Part shown: positions 15,052-38,064 of the stretch, piece by piece
Layout of the letters: each line of letters begins with the position of its first letter
Position numbering within the stretch: position 1 is the stretch's first letter
DNA from: Chryseobacterium sp. G0162
GTDB lineage: Bacteria; Bacteroidota; Bacteroidia; Flavobacteriales; Weeksellaceae
Direction: 5' to 3'
Assembly (NCBI RefSeq): GCF_003815715.1
Contig: NZ_CP033922.1
Span: 1,563,001-1,627,000 of the forward strand
DNA: 64,000 nucleotides
The notes under the pieces: generated by a model
Told to the model about the DNA's origin: nothing
What the model saw: the letters and a program-made list of their open reading frames with translations, nothing else
Databases searched by the model: none
Program-made: the position numbers and the translations under genes

Positions 15052-15070
15052 AATCTATCTCTTCATTTAC

Positions 15071-15155
15071 TAGCCCCGATTGCAGCGGCATCCTTTTTCT
15101 GAATTGACCTAAGAAAGGCGAAAAAGATATAGCGGAAAGCGGGAATAAGCTCCTA
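15071..15155. repeat. REP-like structured intergenic element
   Basis: The element begins TAGCCCCGATTGCAGCGG and ends GCGGAAAGCGGGA...AGCTCCTA. Its centre is an inverted repeat ATCCTTTTTC / GAAAAAGAT. I recall this TAGCCCCG...AGCTCCT layout as recurrent between Chryseobacterium genes; the element at 56096-56212 is a relative. It separates the Ro60 gene from the hypothetical gene. Confidence 0.6.
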
Positions 15156-15261: not shown

Positions 15262-16779
15262 TTACAACACTACTTTTTCAATCATTTCAAGAGCAGATTT
15301 TTGATCTTCCAAGGCATTCAATACATCGAAAATCTTGTCTGACCAGCCTGCAATAAGGTATACATCATTTCTTTTGACATCAATGGGTGGTCTTCCATAT
15401 CCTGCCAAATCAAAAATATAAAGTTTAGCCTCAGGAGCTATCGTCTTATACTTGTTCCATGTATCTTCAAAAGAGTTTCCTCTTCCACTGCTATCCCACA
15501 TTTGAGTATCAGTGAACAGCATTACTTTATCCACGATTTCTTTTCTTTTGATCAGATCTTCGATAACCAGATAACCATTGGTTGAATATCCTACTTCACC
15601 TTCTCGTTTGTAGAAGGCTTCTACATTGTTAAGAATACCTTGTTTTGGCATCGCAATGCGCAGCCATCGATCACCGAAGATTCCTGTAGTCACATTTTGA
15701 CACTTCGACTGCAAAATCATAGACATCAATAAACCGATATCATACAGTAAAATTTTACTCTTAGGAGAAACTGATTTCTGCATAGAACCAGAAACATCCG
15801 CTGCAATCACTACCGAGGTATTGAAACCGAAACCTTTGATATTTTGGGCACTTGCCACTAAAGCTTCTTCCAGTGCACTCCAAACAGAAGACAGATAAGG
15901 AGAATCTACCTTTTTCAATTCTCTGTATGCTGCCAGGAAACGGAAAGGCAATTGTTTTGAGTTGCCCACTGCTCTTTCATCTGACAGATAACTGCACACT
16001 TTACTCATGGCTTCAGGAGATACGCCGGCTTCAAGGATATTTCTCAGGTTTCGTAAGGTGGCCATATATCCCAGTTTATTACTGAAGATCAGTTCTTCCC
16101 ATTTATTTTTGAAAGCCTGTTTTCTTTCTACCTCATCTGTAAATTTTTTCTGTCCCAATACTGAAAGTTCAACTTCCCATGTATAAGGAGTATCCAGAAT
16201 GTCATATACAATCTTGTTGAAAATGGTCTGCTGGTTCTCATCTTTTGCTTTTGGGTGAACCAGAAAGAGGGCATCTTTCAAGGTTACGGCTCCTTTTCTA
16301 TTGTATTTGGCGAATTGATATTCATCAAATTTATTGAAGGATTTCGCCAGACCTTTCTGAACCTGTTTGGATAACCTGTTCAATTTCTTGGTTTCCGTTC
16401 TTTCATTAGCAAGCTGATAATACGCTAACATTTCCGTGATCTCATCAGCTCTCTGAACAATACCCTCTACGGTTCTGCTCACCAGATCGGTACCCGTAGC
16501 CTCCTTCGCCAATTCTGTAGCCAAAACCAAAGGAATGGAACGCAAATGCATATCTTTTCTTGCATAAACAGCCAGTTTCGCTACAAATTCAGGATCATTT
16601 TTCTGAATCAGAGATTGTATTCTCTCTAGTCTGTCATTTCCTTTTTCATAAGTAATATCTGACAGTCCTGTTGTAACCACAGCACTATACAATTCTTCTG
16701 CAGGTGTCATCACATAAGCTTTTGCACCTTCGTGGTTGGTTACCACTATTTTTTCTTTTTTTAGAAAGTTAAATTTCAT
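15262..16779 (-). CDS. rsr: Ro60/Rsr RNA-binding protein (TROVE and vWA domains)
   Basis: The 505-residue protein has an N-terminal TROVE domain (about 15-320), a HEAT-like ring that binds misfolded RNAs and Y RNAs, with DPEFVAKLAVYARKDMHLRSIPLVLA. A C-terminal vWA-like domain holds an intact metal site: VIAADVSGSM near residue 335 and LFTDTQMWD further on. The length matches bacterial Ro orthologues. It is transcribed from a promoter with the shared block at 16841-16877 and is followed by five Y-RNA genes on the same strand. In other bacteria Ro and a Y RNA tether nucleases such as PNPase for structured-RNA decay. Confidence 0.95.
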   Translation of the reverse strand: MKFNFLKKEKIVVTNHEGAKAYVMTPAEELYSAVVTTGLSDITYEKGNDRLERIQSLIQKNDPEFVAKLAVYARKDMHLRSIPLVLATELAKEATGTDLVSRTVEGIVQRADEITEMLAYYQLANERTETKKLNRLSKQVQKGLAKSFNKFDEYQFAKYNRKGAVTLKDALFLVHPKAKDENQQTIFNKIVYDILDTPYTWEVELSVLGQKKFTDEVERKQAFKNKWEELIFSNKLGYMATLRNLRNILEAGVSPEAMSKVCSYLSDERAVGNSKQLPFRFLAAYRELKKVDSPYLSSVWSALEEALVASAQNIKGFGFNTSVVIAADVSGSMQKSVSPKSKILLYDIGLLMSMILQSKCQNVTTGIFGDRWLRIAMPKQGILNNVEAFYKREGEVGYSTNGYLVIEDLIKRKEIVDKVMLFTDTQMWDSSGRGNSFEDTWNKYKTIAPEAKLYIFDLAGYGRPPIDVKRNDVYLIAGWSDKIFDVLNALEDQKSALEMIEKVVL

Positions 16780-31502: not shown

Positions 31503-31528
31503 AGTTTCGGTAATACATTACCGAAACT
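31503..31528 (-). terminator. Terminator of the RNA ligase gene
   Basis: AGTTTCGGTAAT and ATTACCGAAACT form a perfect 12-bp stem with a 2-nt loop, followed by U6. It overlaps the ligase stop codon, so the RNase Z-like gene downstream probably needs its own promoter. Confidence 0.85.
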
Positions 31529-32540
31529 AGACTTTAAGAGTCATTAACTCTTCTTTTATACAATCAATGACTAAAGAGTTCAACTTTTTGTTGATCCTTT
31601 TATGCTCATCTTTTTCTATGGTTGTGAAAACAGCTGGAAAATCTTTTTCAAAATCTTCTAAAATATCCTGTGCAAAAAGTCCTATCACTTTACCCATGAT
31701 TTTGGGTTCAAATTCACCAATTTTGCTCACGACATTATTCAATCTGTTTGCTGTTACATATTGTTGAATCTCCCCCCAGATATTTTGAGCAGTTTCACTA
31801 AAATCAACCTGTTTTTGAGTAGCTTTTCTTTCTTTTTTTACCATTTTAGATTTTTCAATCCATTTTTCATTTTTATTTTTTAGAATGACTCTGGCTCCGT
31901 TTCCGAAATATTTGGTTTTTAAGGTCTTAATAATGGTTCCTTCACACATGTTGTTCATTTCCGGTAATCTTAACCAGGTTGGGATTTTAGAATTGAAAAC
32001 ATTCGGGAATCTTAAAGCTTCTTCTAAAGTTCCTTCAAACAAAGTTTTAGCATAGAAAAATCCGGTCTTCTCAAAAATTGAGTTGATGATATCTGTATCC
32101 AAATAAGTGACCCCATTCAACTTAATGTCAAATGCATAAAAATCGTTATACGGTGCATATTCAATTCCTTTTTGCACTTTTATCGCATTTTTTACGGGTT
32201 CTACTTCTTTATGATTGTAACTGCCACCGAATAATTCGCCGTAGATGACTACTGTCTCAACATTCGGGTATATTGTTTTCACTTTTTGAAACAAATTAAT
32301 TACATTTTTTCTGTATTGTTCCAAAATCTGATGTGCATTGTAAAATTTTTCTTCTTTTTCAATAAAAGCTGTTCGTTTTGCGATCTTAATTTCCTTTCCG
32401 TCGGTAAAGAAAGAGAAATTAGCACCGTGAACTTTTTCCTGCACGATGAAAACCTCATCCCCAAAGCCCTGCAACCTGATCTGATCGATCATGCGGGTTT
32501 GGTAAGCATTTTCTATAGAGTTATATGTTTTGAAAATCAT
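31527..32540 (-). CDS. Rnl2-type RNA ligase
   Basis: The 337-residue protein has the nucleotidyltransferase motifs of Rnl2: motif I EKVHGANFS with the adenylated Lys36, RTAFI after it, IYGELFGG (motif III), EGTIIKTL (motif IV) and VILKNKN (motif V). Rnl2 ligases seal 3'-OH/5'-phosphate nicks in double-stranded RNA, as in anticodon or bulge repair. The C-terminal 100 residues are helical. It is the core enzyme of the repair locus. Confidence 0.93.
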   Translation of the reverse strand: MIFKTYNSIENAYQTRMIDQIRLQGFGDEVFIVQEKVHGANFSFFTDGKEIKIAKRTAFIEKEEKFYNAHQILEQYRKNVINLFQKVKTIYPNVETVVIYGELFGGSYNHKEVEPVKNAIKVQKGIEYAPYNDFYAFDIKLNGVTYLDTDIINSIFEKTGFFYAKTLFEGTLEEALRFPNVFNSKIPTWLRLPEMNNMCEGTIIKTLKTKYFGNGARVILKNKNEKWIEKSKMVKKERKATQKQVDFSETAQNIWGEIQQYVTANRLNNVVSKIGEFEPKIMGKVIGLFAQDILEDFEKDFPAVFTTIEKDEHKRINKKLNSLVIDCIKEELMTLKV

Positions 32541-32544
32541 TTTT

Positions 32545-33107
32545 TTAGTTTTTAATCATTTCTGATTGGTTATTTCCCATTTGGGTAATGTGTCTTTGTG
32601 CATGAAGTGAGAGAAAATAAATGTACTCATAGACATTGATTTTCCCCAGATTATTCACGCTCATGGTCGTTTTATAGAGAACTCCTTCGCCATTTTTCAT
32701 CAAATCCAGGTAATTCTGACATTGATAATACTGTTGAGTAATCAGGTTTCTGATCTCTCTTAAACTTCGTTCTCCTTTAGGCTCCATGTGTTCAGGTCTG
32801 ATCCAATCAAAAGCACCATATTCCCCTACTTTTTCAAAATTTTCTTTGTTGAAACTGTAGTTTTAATTTCAGATTCCAGGTCGAGTTTTAAAGAATTTCG
32901 CATTGCCTTTTTTGAGCCTTTTTCAATAAGGATCAGCAAATAAAAATTTGTAAGATAGATATGCTCTAAAATCTGTTGAACTGACCAGCCTCCATTTGAT
33001 GGCTGATAGTTCAGGGTTGTACCATCTTTATCAAACCATCCGTCAACCTCATTAAAACTAAGGCTGAGATGATTTCTAATCTCCTGGATATATCTGAAAA
33101 TGTCCAT
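32545..33107 (-). pseudogene. DinB-fold gene split by a frameshift
   Basis: Two frames encode the halves of one DinB/YfiT-like four-helix protein: residues with WSVQQILEHIYLTNFYLL (33107 to 32826) and FDWIRPEHMEPKGERSLREI...YIYFLSLHAQRHITQM (frame ending 32545). A single-base shift in the A-rich stretch near 32830-32860 would join them (the second frame reads NKENFEKVGEYG). As drawn, the first frame stops at 32826. It may be a true pseudogene, a sequencing error or slippage. It sits between the receiver and the ligase genes. Confidence 0.8.
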
Positions 33108-33478
33108 TACAATTTTTTAAAGTTTTTTAAAAGTCTTTCAATATTCTCCTTTCCTACAGGATTCATGGAATGACAGTAGAATTTGGGTAGGTCTAAATAA
33201 TGATCCATACAATATTCTATCAGCCATTTTGCACAATCGTAGCCTGTTTTTTCCACAAATTCACCGGTATCTGTTTTCAGATAATGTTCATCTGCAAGGT
33301 CATGGTCAAAAGAAATCATTTCCGGAAGTCCCTTTTCCAGGATTCTGTTGACAAACTGATCGTAATTTCGAACGATATGCCAATCTCTTCTGAGAAAAAT
33401 ATCCTGTTTGGTATAACGATATGCCTCAATCGGATATCGTATATCATCCAGAAATAATAGTCTTTTGATTATTTCCAT
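33107..33478 (-). CDS. Cyclic-phosphate-processing receiver-domain protein
   Basis: The 123-residue protein has LLFLDDIRYP (paired Asp near the start), MISFDHDL and YDCAKWLIEYC, with a final FYCHSMNPVGKENI. This is the pattern of the receiver-fold family proposed to process cyclic phosphates at RNA ends in repair operons. I use ATG 33478; a GTG 18 nt upstream is possible. Its stop touches the DinB start. Confidence 0.83.
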   Translation of the reverse strand: MEIIKRLLFLDDIRYPIEAYRYTKQDIFLRRDWHIVRNYDQFVNRILEKGLPEMISFDHDLADEHYLKTDTGEFVEKTGYDCAKWLIEYCMDHYLDLPKFYCHSMNPVGKENIERLLKNFKKL

Positions 33479-33496
33479 TGCTTTATTATTCAACAC

Positions 33497-34402: not shown

Positions 34403-34888
34403 TTACACCATCATATCAGCACAGTTGGAACTTGCGAAGGCAAAAGGTTTTGCTTTAAACACATATCCCATTCCCAGAATGTATCCCATTGCATCTTTTA
34501 ATGCTGCATTGGATTTAAAATCAGGATCGGTATTGATGTCTGCGTGTACCTCCATTTCTACTCCATAAGTATCCAATACAGAACAAATTGCGTAAGCAAT
34601 TTCAACAGATTTGTTGACTTCATTCAGCATTCGCTCTTTAATACTGATGGTCTGTATTTCTCTTTCTTTTCTGATAAAGGTAAACGCTCCTTTTCCTTCA
34701 CGAATAAATACTACTGCCGTAGCATAATTAATAGCTTCTCCATATACGTGAGAGTCTGATCCCACACATACTTTCAGACGATGTCCGTTTGCCTGTTCGC
34801 GAATAATGGCTTCTTCTACCAGCTGTGTGATAGAATGTTGGAAAAATTTTCCTTTCATATTCTGCCATGTTTGTTGTTGCGTTTCCAT
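34403..34888 (-). CDS. YkuK-like (DUF458) RNase H-fold protein
   Basis: The 161-residue protein contains VCVGSDSHVYG (residues about 39-49), IHADINTDP (here VHADINTDPDFKSN) and the closing GYVFKAKPFAFASSNCADMM. These acidic residues fit the RNase H-like fold of the YkuK family. It follows the last tRNA gene after only 66 nt with no terminator between, so it is probably cotranscribed with the tRNA array. Confidence 0.82.
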   Translation of the reverse strand: METQQQTWQNMKGKFFQHSITQLVEEAIIREQANGHRLKVCVGSDSHVYGEAINYATAVVFIREGKGAFTFIRKEREIQTISIKERMLNEVNKSVEIAYAICSVLDTYGVEMEVHADINTDPDFKSNAALKDAMGYILGMGYVFKAKPFAFASSNCADMMV

Positions 34889-34954
34889 TTTTTTACATAT
34901 TTAAGTTCTATACTTTTTATAATTCATAAATCATTATTGATTATTCACTTTCTG

Positions 34955-35025
34955 CACTCCGAACTGGACTCGAACCAATACCATCAGTTTTGGAGACTGA
35001 GATGCTACCATTACAATATCAGAGT
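34955..35025 (-). tRNA. tRNA-Trp (CCA), array member 14
   Basis: Acceptor ACTCTGA/TCGGAGT, anticodon stem TCAGT/ACTGA with loop CTCCAAA, T arm with TTCGAGT and G73. The D stem has one mismatch. CCA is not encoded. Confidence 0.88.
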
Positions 35026-35033
35026 AAATGTTG

Positions 35034-35106
35034 TTAATTCATTAGGACTCGAACCTAAACTCCAAGAATCAAAATCTTGTGTGCTGACCAATTACACTAT
35101 GAATCA
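35034..35106 (-). tRNA. tRNA-Gln (TTG), array member 13
   Basis: Acceptor TGATTCA/TGAATTA, D stem GTGT/GCAC, anticodon stem CAAGA/TCTTG with loop TTTTGAT, T arm TTAGG-TTCGAGT-CCTAA, A73. All stems are intact. Confidence 0.9.
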
Positions 35107-35205
35107 GATTAATTCATGAGCAATAAGTAATAGATAATGAGGAATGTTTAAAAACAATCAAGTATCAAAGATCACTCATTATATTACTTATCGTTCATGT
35201 TCTTG

Positions 35206-35278
35206 CGGAACAGACAGGAATTGAACCTGTACCTTTAGTTTTTCAGACTAACGTGCACACCAAGTACACCACTCTTCC
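35206..35278 (-). tRNA. tRNA-Phe (GAA), array member 12
   Basis: Anticodon stem TTAGT/ACTAA with loop CTGAAAA, T arm ACAGG-TTCAATT-CCTGT, D stem GTGT/GCAC. The acceptor has one G-G mismatch and position 73 is G, which is unusual for Phe. Confidence 0.85.
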
Positions 35279-35284
35279 CTATTT

Positions 35285-35378
35285 TATGAGTAATAAGCAA
35301 TTAGTGATGAGTAATGATGAAAACTAATTTTCTATCATTCATTACTTATGATTCATTACTTATTTTTCATTATAAAAA
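35285..35378. repeat. AT-rich long inverted repeat between tRNAs
   Basis: TGAGTAATAAGCAATTAGTG faces ATCATTCATTACTTATG across a short loop. Related TGAGTAATnAGTAAT palindromes recur at 35950, 36692 and beside other array spacers. It may fold into processing hairpins. Confidence 0.6.
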
Positions 35379-35380
35379 GT

Positions 35381-35434
35381 AAAAGGTTGTCTGTTTTTAT
35401 TGACTAAAGATCTTCTACGCTTGACAAGCCTTTT
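35381..35434 (-). ncRNA. Array hairpin R1
   Basis: AAAAGGTTGTC and GACAAGCCTTTT form the stem (one bulge); the loop holds the conserved AAGATCTTCTACGCTT (plus strand). It lies between tRNA-Phe and tRNA-Glu. Confidence 0.7.
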
Positions 35435-35538
35435 CTCTTTTCTTCATTTTGTGTGAATGGCAACTGGCCAATATTTTTTTAAATCTGAACTTTCATGGTA
35501 TTATATCAATTATGTATTGACCAGTCATTCACATCCAG

Positions 35539-35610
35539 TACTCTATAAGGGAATCGAACCCTTGTTTTCTGCTCGAAAGGCAGGCGTCCTTACCGTTAGA
35601 CGAATAGAGC
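35539..35610 (-). tRNA. tRNA-Glu (TTC), array member 11
   Basis: Acceptor GCTCTAT/ATAGAGT, D arm GTCTAACGGTAAGGAC, anticodon loop CTTTCGA, T arm AAGGG-TTCGATT-CCCTT, A73. The pair 27-43 is a C-A mismatch. Confidence 0.88.
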
Positions 35611-35688
35611 GTTTTTATAAGCAATGAGTAAGTGATACTATTTTATATTATTAATTACTTATTGCCCATTATCCATTATAAAAAGAAT

Positions 35689-35742
35689 AAGCTTGTCTTT
35701 AAATTTGCTTAACAAAAAGATCTTCTACGCTTGACAAGCCTT
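35689..35742 (-). ncRNA. Array hairpin R2
   Basis: AAGCTTGTC / GACAAGCCTT stem with the conserved AAAGATCTTCTACGCTT loop segment. The CTT/AAG pairs differ from R4 and R5 but remain complementary, indicating covariation. Confidence 0.72.
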
Positions 35743-35781
35743 TCTTTCGAAAATTATATTGAGCATTTAATATTTTCTTGA

Positions 35782-35852
35782 CCTACTGACTAGGAATCGA
35801 ACCTAAACAACAAGAGTATATTTCCTGCATGCTGCCATTACATTATCAGCGG
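35782..35852 (-). tRNA. Degenerate tRNA-like gene, anticodon TAT (Ile-AUA?), array member 10
   Basis: D stem ATGT/GCAT, anticodon stem CAGGA/TCTTG and T arm TTAGG-TTCGATT-CCTAG are present. However the loop AATATAC has A at position 33 in place of the universal U, and the acceptor has a C-A mismatch at 2-71. The assignment to Ile (AUA) is tentative; it may be inactive. Confidence 0.6.
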
Positions 35853-35857
35853 TTGGG

Positions 35858-35941
35858 TGGAAGTAGTAGGATTCGAACCTACTCAGCAATGAAGCAACAG
35901 ATTTACAGTCTGCCCCGACTCTCCAACTTCGGCGTACTTCC
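35858..35941 (-). tRNA. tRNA-Tyr (GTA), array member 9
   Basis: Acceptor GGAAGTA/TACTTCC, D stem CCGA/TCGG, anticodon loop CTGTAAA, long variable arm (class II) and T arm GTAGG-TTCGAAT-CCTAC. It is a complete tRNA. Confidence 0.93.
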
Positions 35942-35949
35942 GGATTTCT

Positions 35950-36018
35950 TTATGAGTAATGAGTAATTGATGATGGCTAATTTATCATTCATTGCTTATT
36001 GCCCATTACTTATAAAAA
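35950..36018. repeat. AT-rich long inverted repeat between tRNAs
   Basis: TATGAGTAATGAGTAATTGA faces CATTGCTTATTGCCCATTAC; the same word family as at 35285 and 36692. Confidence 0.55.
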
Positions 36019-36020
36019 GA

Positions 36021-36080
36021 AAAAGCCTGTCTGTATTTTGTGTTTTGGCTTAAAGATCTTCTGCGCTTGACAGACATTTT
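36021..36080 (-). ncRNA. Array hairpin R3
   Basis: CTGTC/GACAG core stem with the conserved loop segment AAAGATCTTCTGCGCTT. It lies between tRNA-Tyr and tRNA-Cys. Confidence 0.68.
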
Positions 36081-36170
36081 CTTTTCTTAATAAAGGATAT
36101 TTTTAGCTATAATTAATGAATGATAGTTGATGGATCATCTTCTAACATTACAATTTCCAGCTTTACATTG

Positions 36171-36252
36171 AGATGGTTATGGGATTCAAACCCACTCAGC
36201 TTACGCAACGGTTTTGCAGACCGCCCCGACTCTTCCACTTCGGCGAACCATC
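36171..36252 (-). tRNA. tRNA-Cys (GCA) with class II body, array member 8
   Basis: Acceptor GATGGTT/AACCATC, D stem CCGA/TCGG, anticodon loop CTGCAAA (GCA) and U73, a key Cys identity base. Unusually it has a long variable arm of 12 nt and a D arm almost identical to the neighbouring tRNA-Tyr, so it looks like a Tyr-type body converted to Cys. Confidence 0.88.
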
Positions 36253-36318
36253 AGATTTTAACATGAGGAATAAGCAAGAGGTAATGAATAATTTTTGATG
36301 CTTATTATTCAAAAAAAC

Positions 36319-36372
36319 AAAGTCTGTCTATATTTTTGCTTGATATAAGAACTTCTGCGCTTGACAGACTTT
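36319..36372 (-). ncRNA. Array hairpin R4
   Basis: AAAGTCTGTC / GACAGACTTT is a perfect 10-bp stem; the loop carries AAGAACTTCTGCGCTT. A T-rich tail follows on the minus strand. Confidence 0.72.
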
Positions 36373-36437
36373 ATTTTTACCTAAAATTGTATTAATCATA
36401 TTTTTCTTTCACTTGTAACTTTTTTATTGAGAAAGAA

Positions 36438-36500
36438 AAAGTTTGTCTGTATTTTCTTGTGTTTTTTTGATGTAAAGATCTTCTGCTCTTGACAAACTTT
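36438..36500 (-). ncRNA. Array hairpin R5
   Basis: AAAGTTTGTC / GACAAACTTT is a perfect 10-bp stem. Compared with R4 both strands change together (CT/AG to TT/AA). The loop carries AAAGATCTTCTGCTCTT. Confidence 0.72.
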
Positions 36501-36535
36501 ATTTTTCTCCTGAAACAATTAACATTTAGTTACTG

Positions 36536-36607
36536 CGATTCCGGGAAGATTCGAACTTCCAACTTCTGGTTTAACAGACCAGCGCTCTACCATTGAGCTA
36601 CAAAATC
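36536..36607 (-). tRNA. tRNA-Asn (GTT), array member 7
   Basis: Acceptor GATTTTG/CGGAATC, D arm GCTC/GAGC, anticodon stem CTGGT/ACCAG with loop CTGTTAA, T arm GGAAG-TTCGAAT-CTTCC, G73. Confidence 0.93.
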
Positions 36608-36612
36608 TTTTG

Positions 36613-36685
36613 TACGGGAAGAGGGATTCGAACCCTCAGCGCCTTGATCCTAAATCAAGTGTGTCTACCGTTCCACCATTCCCGC
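36613..36685 (-). tRNA. tRNA-Leu (TAG) without long variable arm, array member 6
   Basis: Acceptor GCGGGAA/TTCCCGT, D stem GTGG/ACAC with the Leu-type G13-A22, anticodon stem CTTGA/TCAAG with loop TTTAGGA, A73. The variable region is only about 5 nt (GCGCT), whereas bacterial tRNA-Leu normally has a long variable arm. Confidence 0.87.
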
Positions 36686-36691
36686 AGCGGT

Positions 36692-36780
36692 TTTATGAAT
36701 AATGAGTAATTGGTGATGAGTAATATTGAAAACTACTTTCTATGCATTATTGCTTATTACTCATTATTGATTACTTATCA
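36692..36780. repeat. AT-rich long inverted repeat between tRNAs
   Basis: AATAATGAGTAATTGG faces CTTATTACTCATTATTGATT around a central AAAACTACTTTC loop. It fills the gap between tRNA-Leu and tRNA-Pro. Confidence 0.6.
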
Positions 36781-36785
36781 TTTCG

Positions 36786-36857
36786 TCTGGAAAGCAAGAT
36801 TCGAACTTGCGACCTCCCGCGTCCAAGACGGGTAAACAACCACCGTTATCTTTCCAG
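36786..36857 (-). tRNA. tRNA-Pro (TGG), array member 5
   Basis: Acceptor CTGGAAA/TTTCCAG, anticodon stem CCCGT/GCGGG with loop CTTGGAC, T arm GCAAG-TTCGAAT-CTTGC, A73. The D arm is degenerate. Confidence 0.87.
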
Positions 36858-36922
36858 TTTTACAGATTCACTTCAATTCTTTTCCGGGAGACAGCCGGAG
36901 CAAAACTTTCTACGAATCTTTG

Positions 36923-36993
36923 CGGTCTATGCGAGAATCGAACTCGCAGTGCCCAAGAGACAGTCGGGCAGGTTACCATTACCTCAATAGACC
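36923..36993 (-). tRNA. tRNA-Asp (GTC), array member 4
   Basis: Acceptor GGTCTAT/ATAGACC, D stem AGGT/ACCT, anticodon stem CCCGA/TTGGG with loop CTGTCTC, T arm GCGAG-TTCGATT-CTCGC, G73. Confidence 0.93.
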
Positions 36994-36999
36994 ATTTTG

Positions 37000-37073
37000 T
37001 GATTCCGAAAGGATTCGAACCTCTAACCCTGGGTTTAGAAAACCCATGCTCTATCCGGTTGAGCTACGGAACC
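37000..37073 (-). tRNA. tRNA-Arg (TCT), array member 3
   Basis: Acceptor GGTTCCG/CGGAATC, D arm GCTC/GAGC, anticodon stem TGGGT/ACCCA with loop TTTCTAA, T arm AGAGG-TTCGAAT-CCTTT. Confidence 0.92.
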
Positions 37074-37079
37074 GTTTGG

Positions 37080-37153
37080 TAATCCCAGAAAGATTTGAAC
37101 TTTCAACCCCCGGTTTAAAAGACCGGTGCTCTAACCATTTGAGCTATGAGATT
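37080..37153 (-). tRNA. tRNA-Lys (TTT), array member 2
   Basis: Acceptor AATCTCA/TGGGATT, D arm GCTC/GAGC, anticodon stem CCGGT/ACCGG with loop CTTTTAA, T arm GAAAG-TTCAAAT-CTTTC, A73. Confidence 0.92.
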
Positions 37154-37163
37154 TTATATTTTG

Positions 37164-37235
37164 GGTATCTTCGGGGATCGAACCCTGTTCTCCGGTTCCA
37201 CAGACCGGCGCTTTACCAAATAAGCTAAAGAAACC
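37164..37235 (-). tRNA. tRNA-His (GTG), array member 1
   Basis: Anticodon stem CCGGT/ACCGG with loop CTGTGGA; an extra 5' G opposite C73 is the tRNA-His hallmark. The acceptor has one T-T mismatch and the T stem is imperfect. It is the first tRNA and starts only 9 nt after the terminator hairpin at 37244-37268. Confidence 0.85.
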
Positions 37236-37243
37236 ATAAAAAA

Positions 37244-37268
37244 AAGCGCCTCTTTTCGGGAGGCGCTT
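37244..37268 (-). terminator. Terminator / attenuator A before the tRNA array
   Basis: On the minus strand AAGCGCCTC (37268-37260) pairs with GAGGCGCTT (37252-37244) around CCGAAAA, followed by eight U. There is no room for a promoter between this hairpin and tRNA-His, so array transcription must read through it. Its 5' arm is complementary to AGGTGCTT inside leader ORF A. Confidence 0.88.
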
Positions 37269-37292
37269 CATATTTTTTAACGTGAAAGATCA

Positions 37293-37418
37293 TTAGCTGA
37301 CCCACGTATATAAGCACCTTTTATCCACAAATTCACAATCATAAGCACACACTGTCCCTGTCGGCTCCTGTCCGAATAGTCTTGAATATTGATTGAGTAT
37401 GTTATGAAATTGTTTCAT
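37293..37418 (-). CDS. Leader peptide A (41 aa, all 20 amino acids)
   Basis: The short ORF starts at ATG 37418 and ends 24 nt before terminator A. Its 41 residues include all 20 amino acids, encoded by 32 different codons, including CTA, CTC, ATA, AGG, GGG, CCG and ACG. Codons 34-36 (AGG TGC TT) can pair over 8 bp, with one G-U, with the terminator 5' arm AAGCGCCT. No signal peptide or known family is visible. I infer a regulatory leader whose translation is monitored, not a protein with its own job. A RiPP precursor (three Cys) is the alternative. Confidence 0.72.
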   Translation of the reverse strand: MKQFHNILNQYSRLFGQEPTGTVCAYDCEFVDKRCLYTWVS

Positions 37419-37488
37419 TTTATTTTTGTTTGTTTCTAAATTATTTTTTGTTGAATCCTGAAAACCTGTTGCTTTCAATTTTCGGTTG

Positions 37489-37496
37489 CAAAGTAA
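37489..37496 (-). promoter_or_regulatory. -7 box of leader A / tRNA array
   Basis: TTACTTTG on the minus strand is the same -7 variant as in the Ro60 promoter. It would give a leader of about 64 nt before the ATG at 37418. Confidence 0.5.
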
Positions 37497-37750
37497 ATAT
37501 GATTTTTTGGAATCTGCAAATAAATTTTAAAATTAAATTATTGATAATCAATTAATTACATGTAAAATTAAGAATAAGCGATTTCTGTCCGCAATCTTTT
37601 GCAGATATCTTAATTACCTAAATGACTGTCTCTCATTGGGTTACTTATCACTCTATTTTATCGTATTAAAGTTGCATTGTTAATTAAAAAATTTTCATGT
37701 TTATGGTTATTTTTTTTCATTCTAAATAATTTCTGACCTAAAAAACAAAA

Positions 37751-37774
37751 AACGCCTCGAAAAATCGAGGCGTT
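37751..37774 (-). terminator. Terminator / attenuator B after leader peptide B
   Basis: AACGCCTCGA and TCGAGGCGTT form a perfect 10-bp stem with a TTTT loop and a U-rich tail on the minus strand. Its 5' arm segment CGCCTC is complementary to GAGGCG in leader ORF B. Confidence 0.88.
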
Positions 37775-37805
37775 TCTGTTGTATTTTGATTAATTTTTTA
37801 CAAGT

Positions 37806-37934
37806 TTATAGTAAATAATTTCCAAAGTCAGCACATTTCGCCTCATTCCATACCCCTTCATCATATCCTAATAATCCTTTATTAGAAGGACTTTCGAATA
37901 GTTCTGCATTGATATGTGCTCTTTGTATTGTCAT
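37806..37934 (-). CDS. Leader peptide B (42 aa, all 20 amino acids)
   Basis: The ORF runs from ATG 37934 to TAA 37806, 12 nt after a TATCTTTG -7 box. The 42 residues also contain all 20 amino acids, with 29 different codons. It shares with peptide A the pattern LF...P..G...YD..V...C. Codons 31-32 (GAG GCG) mimic the terminator 3' arm and can pair with CGCCTC in its 5' arm. Terminator B follows 32 nt after the stop. Tandem leaders B and A would place two attenuators before the tRNA array. Confidence 0.72.
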   Translation of the reverse strand: MTIQRAHINAELFESPSNKGLLGYDEGVWNEAKCADFGNYLL

Positions 37935-37946
37935 AATTTTCTGGTG

Positions 37947-37954
37947 CAAAGATA
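37947..37954 (-). promoter_or_regulatory. -7 box of leader B
   Basis: TATCTTTG (minus strand) fits TAnnTTTG and lies 12 nt upstream of the leader B ATG. Confidence 0.6.
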
Positions 37955-38064
37955 AATCTTTTTTGTTATTTTTTATAATTCTCACATGGAAGAGTAATAA
38001 AAAAAGGATTCTATGATTGCTTTTAACGGCTGAATTATGTGCTTTTGAAACACAGAGTTTTACT

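Follow-up and report, generated by a model that had tools for sequence, protein, structure and literature searches.

In amino-acid operons such as trp, his and ilv, transcription is attenuated by a short leader ORF with codons tuned to the product of the operon, and by an antiterminator that competes with an intrinsic terminator (PMC1183508, in the part cited here). A tandem arrangement is found in the Salmonella mgtCBR operon, where two short ORFs and alternative stem-loops occupy one leader region (part of PMC3641672). Two further systems are concerned with tRNA damage, namely the RtcR-controlled rtcBA operon, in which RNA repair is tied to tRNA damage and a Ro60 gene lies nearby (part of PMC7790460), and the tRNAs of phages, a second, diverged set with changed anticodon loops that evades tRNA-cutting defences (part of PMC10264068). 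The locus described here resembles each of them in these respects, the tie to tRNA damage being proposed. It lies in a window of 64,000 nucleotides (the whole stretch of DNA that was analysed) of Chryseobacterium sp. G0162, and its features are collected in Table 1. It is very probably a tandem, ribosome-read transcription attenuator, predicted from the sequence to switch on spare tRNAs, and probably RNA repair, when any of many tRNAs runs short. It is also likely, with somewhat less confidence, that it operates as a tRNA thermostat, in which the leader is a translated checklist of the tRNAs behind it, the loss of any listed tRNA or isoacceptor turns on the backup set and repair, and the list is rewritten as tRNA genes come and go.

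Table 1. Features of the attenuator, the tRNA array and the downstream genes, with their positions in the window.
Feature	Position	Strand	Description
Promoter-like box of unit B, TATCTTTGC	37946..37954	-	TAnnTTTG type; similarly placed in relatives
Leader ORF B	37934-37806	-	42 aa, 20/20 amino acids, 29 distinct codons
Antiterminator 5' arm GAGGCG within ORF B	37839..37844	-	position and conservation in relatives
Intrinsic terminator B	37748..37777	-	terminator scan; strict pattern matches 85/109 relatives
Conserved RNA between B and A	37587..37636	-	22-nt core 37615-37636 and hairpin 37587-37606
Promoter-like box of unit A, TTTACTTTGCAACC	37484..37497	-	near-invariant among relatives
Leader ORF A	37418-37293	-	41 aa, 20/20 amino acids, 32 codons
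Predicted antiterminator hairpin A	37261..37319	-	5' strand inside ORF A, loop contains stop codon
Intrinsic terminator A	37243..37269	-	terminator scan; pairing 100% in 50 relatives
14 backup tRNA genes	34954..37235	-	His Lys Arg Asp Pro Leu Asn Cys Tyr Ile(TAT) Glu Phe Gln Trp
YkuK-like RNase H-like protein (PF04308)	34403..34888	-	first gene past array
Cyclic-phosphate processing receiver domain protein (PF20274)	33107..33496	-	Pfam match
T4 Rnl2-type RNA ligase (PF09414, PF18043)	31527..32540	-	Pfam match
Next minus-strand terminator-like site past terminator A	31503..31528	-	just behind RNA ligase gene

The tandem leaders with all 20 amino acids, the arms and the terminators ahead of a tRNA array, as described in an earlier sequence-only reading, are all present in the window. 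The arms, AGGTGCTT in A and GAGGCG in B, sit inside the ORFs and are complementary to the 5' arms of the terminators, and the end of leader A lies within the predicted antiterminator hairpin, which competes with a terminator located 2 nt before the first tRNA. Only three terminator-like sites were found on the minus strand between 28300 and 38100, terminators A and B among them; both strands together have 10, compared with 5.3 expected from shuffles. The gene for tRNA-His starts at 37235, two nucleotides past the T-run of terminator A, and because only these 2 nt separate the two, no promoter fits between them, as had been claimed; the same 2-nt gap is seen in 86/107 arrays of relatives. TAnnTTTG is a promoter consensus, and the box of unit B is the single strict match within -700 to +2700 around leader A, so that none is found past leader A down to +2700.

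The system is patchy in its distribution. Leader A was found in 93 Chryseobacterium and 8 sister-genus genomes among the 246 genomes of the family that were searched (four further weak matches were discounted), with credible matches in 2 of the 33 genera sampled. The comparisons below cover 110 loci (102 in Chryseobacterium, 8 in the sister genus). Leader B is present in 141/148 genomes of the genus and is located 497-516 nt upstream of A in 34/35 loci; four loci (L108, L110, L175, L176) were dropped for B, with the start unresolved or B not found.

The competing pairings are conserved across these loci. The helix between the strand in ORF A and the 5' arm of the terminator, which forms the outer helix of antiterminator A, is 99.7% paired in 50 non-redundant loci (60 of the 110 antiterminator segments were excluded from alignment A3 as redundant, and alignments A1 and A2 comprised 18 and 12 leaders), and the inner helices are 71-91% paired. 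Terminator A is paired throughout in 50 non-redundant relatives, 15 of which carry a GC to AU double change, and both folds survive this change because the U of the ORF pairs with either G or A. In unit B, 104/109 relatives have, 36 nt ahead of the stop codon, an arm that departs from GAGGCG at no more than one position (exact GAGGCG in 86/109). The predicted, mutually exclusive pairing of antiterminator and terminator is kept in the homologues, in agreement with the complementarity that the earlier reading had expected them to retain. Folded up to the 5' arm of the terminator, antiterminator A has a mean MFE of -18.6 kcal/mol compared with -12.7 for the terminator alone (110 loci). When the whole segment is folded, the terminator together with the inner hairpin is the minimum-energy fold in 8 of 9 examples (mean of all 110, -23.2), so that the switch needs a kinetic order. 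Covariation of the antiterminator did not exceed that of shuffles in one test (96 to 437 of 500) and did so in part in another (12 to 237 of 500), and the outer helix varies on one side only; the modelled antiterminator rests on conservation, not on covariation.

With all tRNAs available, the ribosome would reach the stop codon in the antiterminator loop and open the hairpin, so that the terminator forms. If a needed charged tRNA is lacking, e.g. because an anticodon nuclease has cut it, the ribosome would stall before approximately codon 30, the antiterminator would form before the 3' arm of the terminator has been made, and the polymerase would continue into the spare tRNA genes and further towards the gene of the Rnl2-type ligase. 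Leader B would act in the same way on the transcript that runs from upstream through the conserved RNA into A. An untranslated transcript would read through too, which counts against the model. We infer that stalling opens the array, that tRNA damage is the trigger and that the ligase is co-induced. Since there are few codons per tRNA (one to three in leader A of the window), the switch would answer to the severe loss of a single tRNA and not to mild amino-acid limitation; a low number of codons per amino acid should give low sensitivity by theory (part of PMC1183508).

Outside the array, the genome encodes housekeeping tRNAs for all 20 amino acids, to which the array tRNAs are 55-77% identical (best match for the same amino acid). 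The seven bases around the anticodon differ between the array tRNA and the best housekeeping cognate in 10 of the 13 cases with the same anticodon; changes around the anticodon have been reported for phage tRNAs as well (part of PMC10264068). The Ile(TAT) tRNA has no housekeeping counterpart among the tRNAs found, and elsewhere in the genome (C1:990668-990776) there is a 109-nt match to the tRNA model without an ARAGORN tRNA call. Among the 108 loci for which 3 kb or more of downstream sequence was available, the array ranges from 0 to 17 tRNAs, with zero in two loci (the 2 of 110 loci under 3 kb were excluded from the array counts, and the two arrayless ones from the pair counts). Three sister-genus loci (L108, L109, L110) retain leader A and the attenuator with no array tRNA in the scanned stretch (4.4 kb, for L110 only 2.3 kb), and a phosphoesterase gene comes next, at +349 to +392. 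Five copies of a hairpin lie between the array tRNAs of the window on the minus strand (35407-35425, 35717-35735, 36053-36071, 36347-36365 and 36475-36493), with GTCAAGCGCAGAAGATCTT at the base of a stem of the GTCTGTC..GACAGAC type. One to five copies (at most 3 mismatches) are present in 109/110 loci, with none on the opposite strand and none in the loci of the more distant genus described below; the element is possibly a processing or protein-binding site.

The YkuK-like gene follows on the same strand, with no array tRNA behind it, in 105/110 loci. In the window it is succeeded by a protein without a Pfam match, which we take to be of the ATP-grasp type, the cyclic-phosphate receiver, a protein with a weak DinB match below the Pfam cut-off and the Rnl2-type ligase. 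No minus-strand terminator-like site was found between terminator A and the end of the ligase gene, and because the next one lies behind the ligase, the array and the ligase could share one transcript. Among the ten neighbouring proteins scanned, the Rnl2-type ligase is present and RtcB and RtcR are not, and a defence library gave no telling match in these ten. A Ro60/TROVE protein is encoded further on from the ligase (15262-16779, minus strand), and a Flavo-1 RNA (15068-15150, plus strand) adjoins its gene.

A sharper pattern than the coverage of 20 amino acids is the match between leader and array. In the window, leader A contains codons for 14/14 array tRNAs, and across Chryseobacterium and the sister genus an array isotype is also represented in leader A in 1077/1090 (genome, isotype) pairs, the 13 exceptions being 10 Trp and 3 Thr; for pairs absent from the arrays the figure is 933/1030. 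In loci whose leader has no codon for His, Asp, Asn, Phe or Tyr (3, 6, 1, 2 and 1 loci, respectively), that tRNA is missing from the array every time. When arrays were permuted within strata of array size for T, D, H, N, F and Y, the observed association was reached in 0/5000 permutations; for Trp there was no association between leader and array (P 0.37). The match extends to synonymous codons in 103 genomes: ATY codons occur in 59/59 leaders with Ile(GAT) in the array compared with 30/44 without, an internal ATG in 16/16 leaders with Met(CAT) compared with 38/87 without, and CGN codons in 11/17 leaders with Arg(ACG) compared with 20/86 without. Furthermore, Thr(TGT) in the array goes with ACR codons in the leader. 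Independent pairs on a tree of the adjacent YkuK gene (3 of 106 genomes without an intact YkuK were left out) gave 24 for, 1 against and 288 unchanged for codon presence, and 106 up, 36 down and 171 equal for codon number; the pairs are independent within one tRNA type and not across types, so that the summed P values of 8e-7 (presence) and 1.7e-9 (number) are nominal. Pro pairs go the opposite way (1 up, 4 down). Leader B follows the array as well, with 10 for and 0 against in presence, and 66 up and 39 down in number. As judged from these sequence comparisons, the leader codons co-vary across species with the array anticodons. Gly is present in the leaders yet never in the arrays, so that the leaders hold more than the array needs; tRNAs for Ala, Gly and Val are absent from all arrays of the 108 loci, and from 35 loci of the more distant genus.

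This pattern bears on two rival explanations. A general sensor of translational stalling, which would respond to any slowing of the ribosome (e.g. by antibiotics) and for which the amino-acid content of the leader would be incidental, could use the same two-state attenuator, and attenuators of antibiotic-resistance genes are known, including an ermC-type leader sensing a global slowdown that is mentioned in part of PMC2965389. We consider it improbable, since the codons follow the anticodons down to synonymous families, with 0/300 mismatched labellings of codon family and tRNA reaching the observed differences, and since the next downstream genes encode tRNAs and RNA-repair-type proteins. A general sensor of amino-acid starvation, with the tRNA array as a by-product of its output, is only slightly less improbable. 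Classical leaders sense charged tRNA, and starvation would thus stall the ribosome too; however, between A and the following terminator-like site there are tRNA genes and genes of the repair type, none of them recognised as biosynthetic, extra uncharged tRNA would not cure starvation, and the low sensitivity expected from so few codons per amino acid (part of PMC1183508) speaks against it as well.

The same layout recurs in a genus of another family (g3, possibly Flavobacterium), which was found through one match of the conserved RNA core. An exact 17-mer of the core is present in 39/299 genomes, with 0 for the reversed control, and 38/40 loci parse as core, TATCTTTGC-type promoter box (37/38), leader and GCACCT-type terminator, the leader start being taken as the first ATG behind the box (L337 and L338 were left unparsed, and 3 of the 38 are without typed tRNAs). 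The leaders have 27-57 aa with 15-19 amino acids, and the peptides are unrelated to those of Chryseobacterium. A loosely defined arm lies within the ORF in 35/38 loci, and 18 of 38 B-like ORFs were parsed, with a strict pattern (15-19 amino acids). In the 35 loci with typed tRNAs, 151/151 array isotypes are present in the leader, and 30.3% of codons are matched to the locus' own array compared with 26.5% for permuted arrays (0/5000). Among 22 non-redundant leaders the values are 28.1% and 24.0% (0/5000), the removal of redundancy being the sole phylogenetic control; six odd tRNA types (Ser act, Ile aat, Pro agg, Asn att, Leu cag, Cys aca) were left out. CGN codons occur in 13/13 leaders before Arg(ACG) compared with 13/25 others. 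One genome has two loci that differ in both array and leader: the leader before a Ser(GCT) and Asp array has four AGT codons, and the one before an Arg(ACG), Lys, Pro, Tyr and Leu(TAG) array has three CGN, four AAA, four CCN, two TAT and two CTA codons. Repair-locus genes of the window have a homologue downstream in 14/38 loci, many of the stretches being short (8 of the ATP-grasp type, 4 Rnl2, 2 RNase_T and 1 phosphoesterase, two of these in a single locus).

The coverage of amino acids, from which the idea started, is high but less decisive. A random ORF of matched base composition contains all 20 amino acids with a probability of 0.011 (A) or 0.010 (B), and one with the composition of the window proteins with 0.004-0.005; at least 19 amino acids are expected in 0.08-0.09 of ORFs of 41-42 codons with matched base composition, and 24/9188 real 42-aa protein windows contain all 20. 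Across the 110 loci, leader A has 16 amino acids in 1, 17 in 7, 18 in 26, 19 in 36 and 20 in 40 (mean 19), so that up to 4 of 20 are lost, most often T (36), W (27), A (25) and V (12). Leader B is the sharper case, with 18 in 3, 19 in 48 and 20 in 55 of 106 loci. In its first 27 codons, ahead of the antiterminator arm, at least 18 amino acids are found in 94/106 relatives compared with 37/9578 real 27-aa windows, and all 20 in 30/106 compared with 0/9578 (simulated P 2-3e-5). The codons of A that precede the arm encode on average 16.95 amino acids compared with 14.71 expected (median P 0.08 among relatives), and those of the window 19 in 29 codons (P 0.0017). Shuffling of alignment columns, in which 3/1000 (A) and 0/1000 (B) reach the observed value, suggests coverage beyond site composition. 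By contrast, a tree simulation of independent sites reaches it in 130/400 (A) and 46/400 (B), which is not significant, and selection for coverage itself is therefore not claimed. The claims of the sequence-only reading thus stand in part: full coverage is rare by chance (P ~0.01), though its maintenance is not significant once phylogeny is simulated, and homologues keep many amino acids, though not strictly 20. The loss of several amino acids, which that reading had named as evidence against itself, is seen in part (up to 4 of 20 in A). The leaders would read many tRNAs but not every one, given the range of 16-20 in A, arrays without Ala, Gly or Val tRNAs in all 108 cases, and a Trp codon of A that falls within the antiterminator 5' strand, where a stall would not help. 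Its core idea, that the leaders sense tRNA shortage and switch on backup tRNAs, fits the homologues examined and the co-variation of codons and anticodons.

That the ORFs are conserved small proteins or RiPP precursors is highly improbable. The N-termini are conserved (MKQLHNI in A, MTIQRAHI in B), and B shows a mild excess of changes at the third codon position (233/577). The parsimony changes at codon positions 1/2/3 are nevertheless nearly even (288/252/304 in A and 138/206/233 in B; on the YkuK genome set 269/235/285 and 129/194/223), compared with 336/211/2012 in YkuK, of which 79% are at the third position. Purifying selection on the peptides of A and B was thus not seen in these counts, and the microprotein or RiPP reading was set aside on this basis. 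Furthermore, the conserved C-terminus of A, DKRCLY, corresponds to the antiterminator strand AAAAGGTGCTTATAT, and in genus g3 the peptide is wholly replaced while the layout is kept. Public databases call many Chryseobacterium 42-aa copies of leader B (37806-37934, minus strand) "penicillin-binding protein," a label that would favour a protein but is apparently a mis-annotation.

Between the two attenuators lies an RNA with a near-invariant core, ATGAGAGACAGTCATTT, and a varying hairpin, common to the two families (also in L269, 1501-1560). With at most 3 mismatches, the 22-nt core is found in 47/395 genomes of the order (2 of them weak), and the exact core in 60 stretches, 59 from Chryseobacterium and one from a "Weeksellaceae bacterium." A copy elsewhere in the same genome with 3 mismatches lies inside an apparent protein gene and was dropped, as was L268, and four matches with one mismatch, from other genera (L299, L302-L304), are not accompanied by a tRNA. 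The consensus fold of the core contains only a 5-bp hairpin (-2.2 kcal/mol). The conserved RNA may act as a small RNA or in processive antitermination. A third ORF between B and A, with an ATG in only 83/110 loci and often short, was treated as non-coding. With the Rfam models, neither the window nor 37150-38050 (searched up to E 5) gave a T-box or another known RNA family at this site; one Phe_leader match below the threshold covers the end of B together with its terminator. Unit B may mainly control the conserved RNA and not the array, a possibility to which we give somewhat less than an even chance. The core is the most conserved part of the locus, and A has its own promoter-like box, but the codons of B also track the array (10 vs 0; 66 up, 39 down). 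B would work as a leader with its own terminator, as had been supposed, while direct control of the array by B is not upheld, since B precedes the conserved RNA and the promoter-like site of A; its action on the array appears to be indirect or additive.

If the proposed mechanism is true, bacteria sense the tRNA pool itself by means of a short ORF and two competing hairpins that command a replacement set of tRNAs. This would be the host's equivalent of phage tRNAs in the conflict over toxins and immune nucleases that cleave tRNAs. The arrays would then provide a natural readout of which tRNA losses a lineage anticipates, those of Ala, Gly and Val being in none of the 108 arrays. Among the matches listed from open-access PMC, none describes, by title or start of the abstract, an attenuator before a tRNA array or a comparable many-amino-acid leader. 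Like known attenuators, the locus has a short ORF and an intrinsic terminator ahead of genes, and codons cognate to the product of the operon; a richness in one or a few amino acids is absent (16-20 in A, 18-20 in B). Compared with the trp, his and ilv leaders (as treated in part of PMC1183508), leader A holds codons for 16-20 amino acids and not a run of one, the product is a set of tRNAs with codons matched to their anticodons, and the antiterminator 5' strand is part of the ORF, so that completed translation would lead to termination and a lack of translation to read-through. The mgtCBR operon of Salmonella (part of PMC3641672) differs in its genes and signal, whereas here each ORF is rich in many amino acids and has its own terminator. 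RtcR of the rtcBA operon is a protein that binds 5' tRNA fragments (part of PMC7790460), whereas the proposed sensor here is the translating ribosome and the ligase is of the Rnl2 type. Finally, unlike the phage tRNAs (part of PMC10264068), the second tRNA set described here resides in the genomes of more than 100 bacterial species, behind a matched attenuator.
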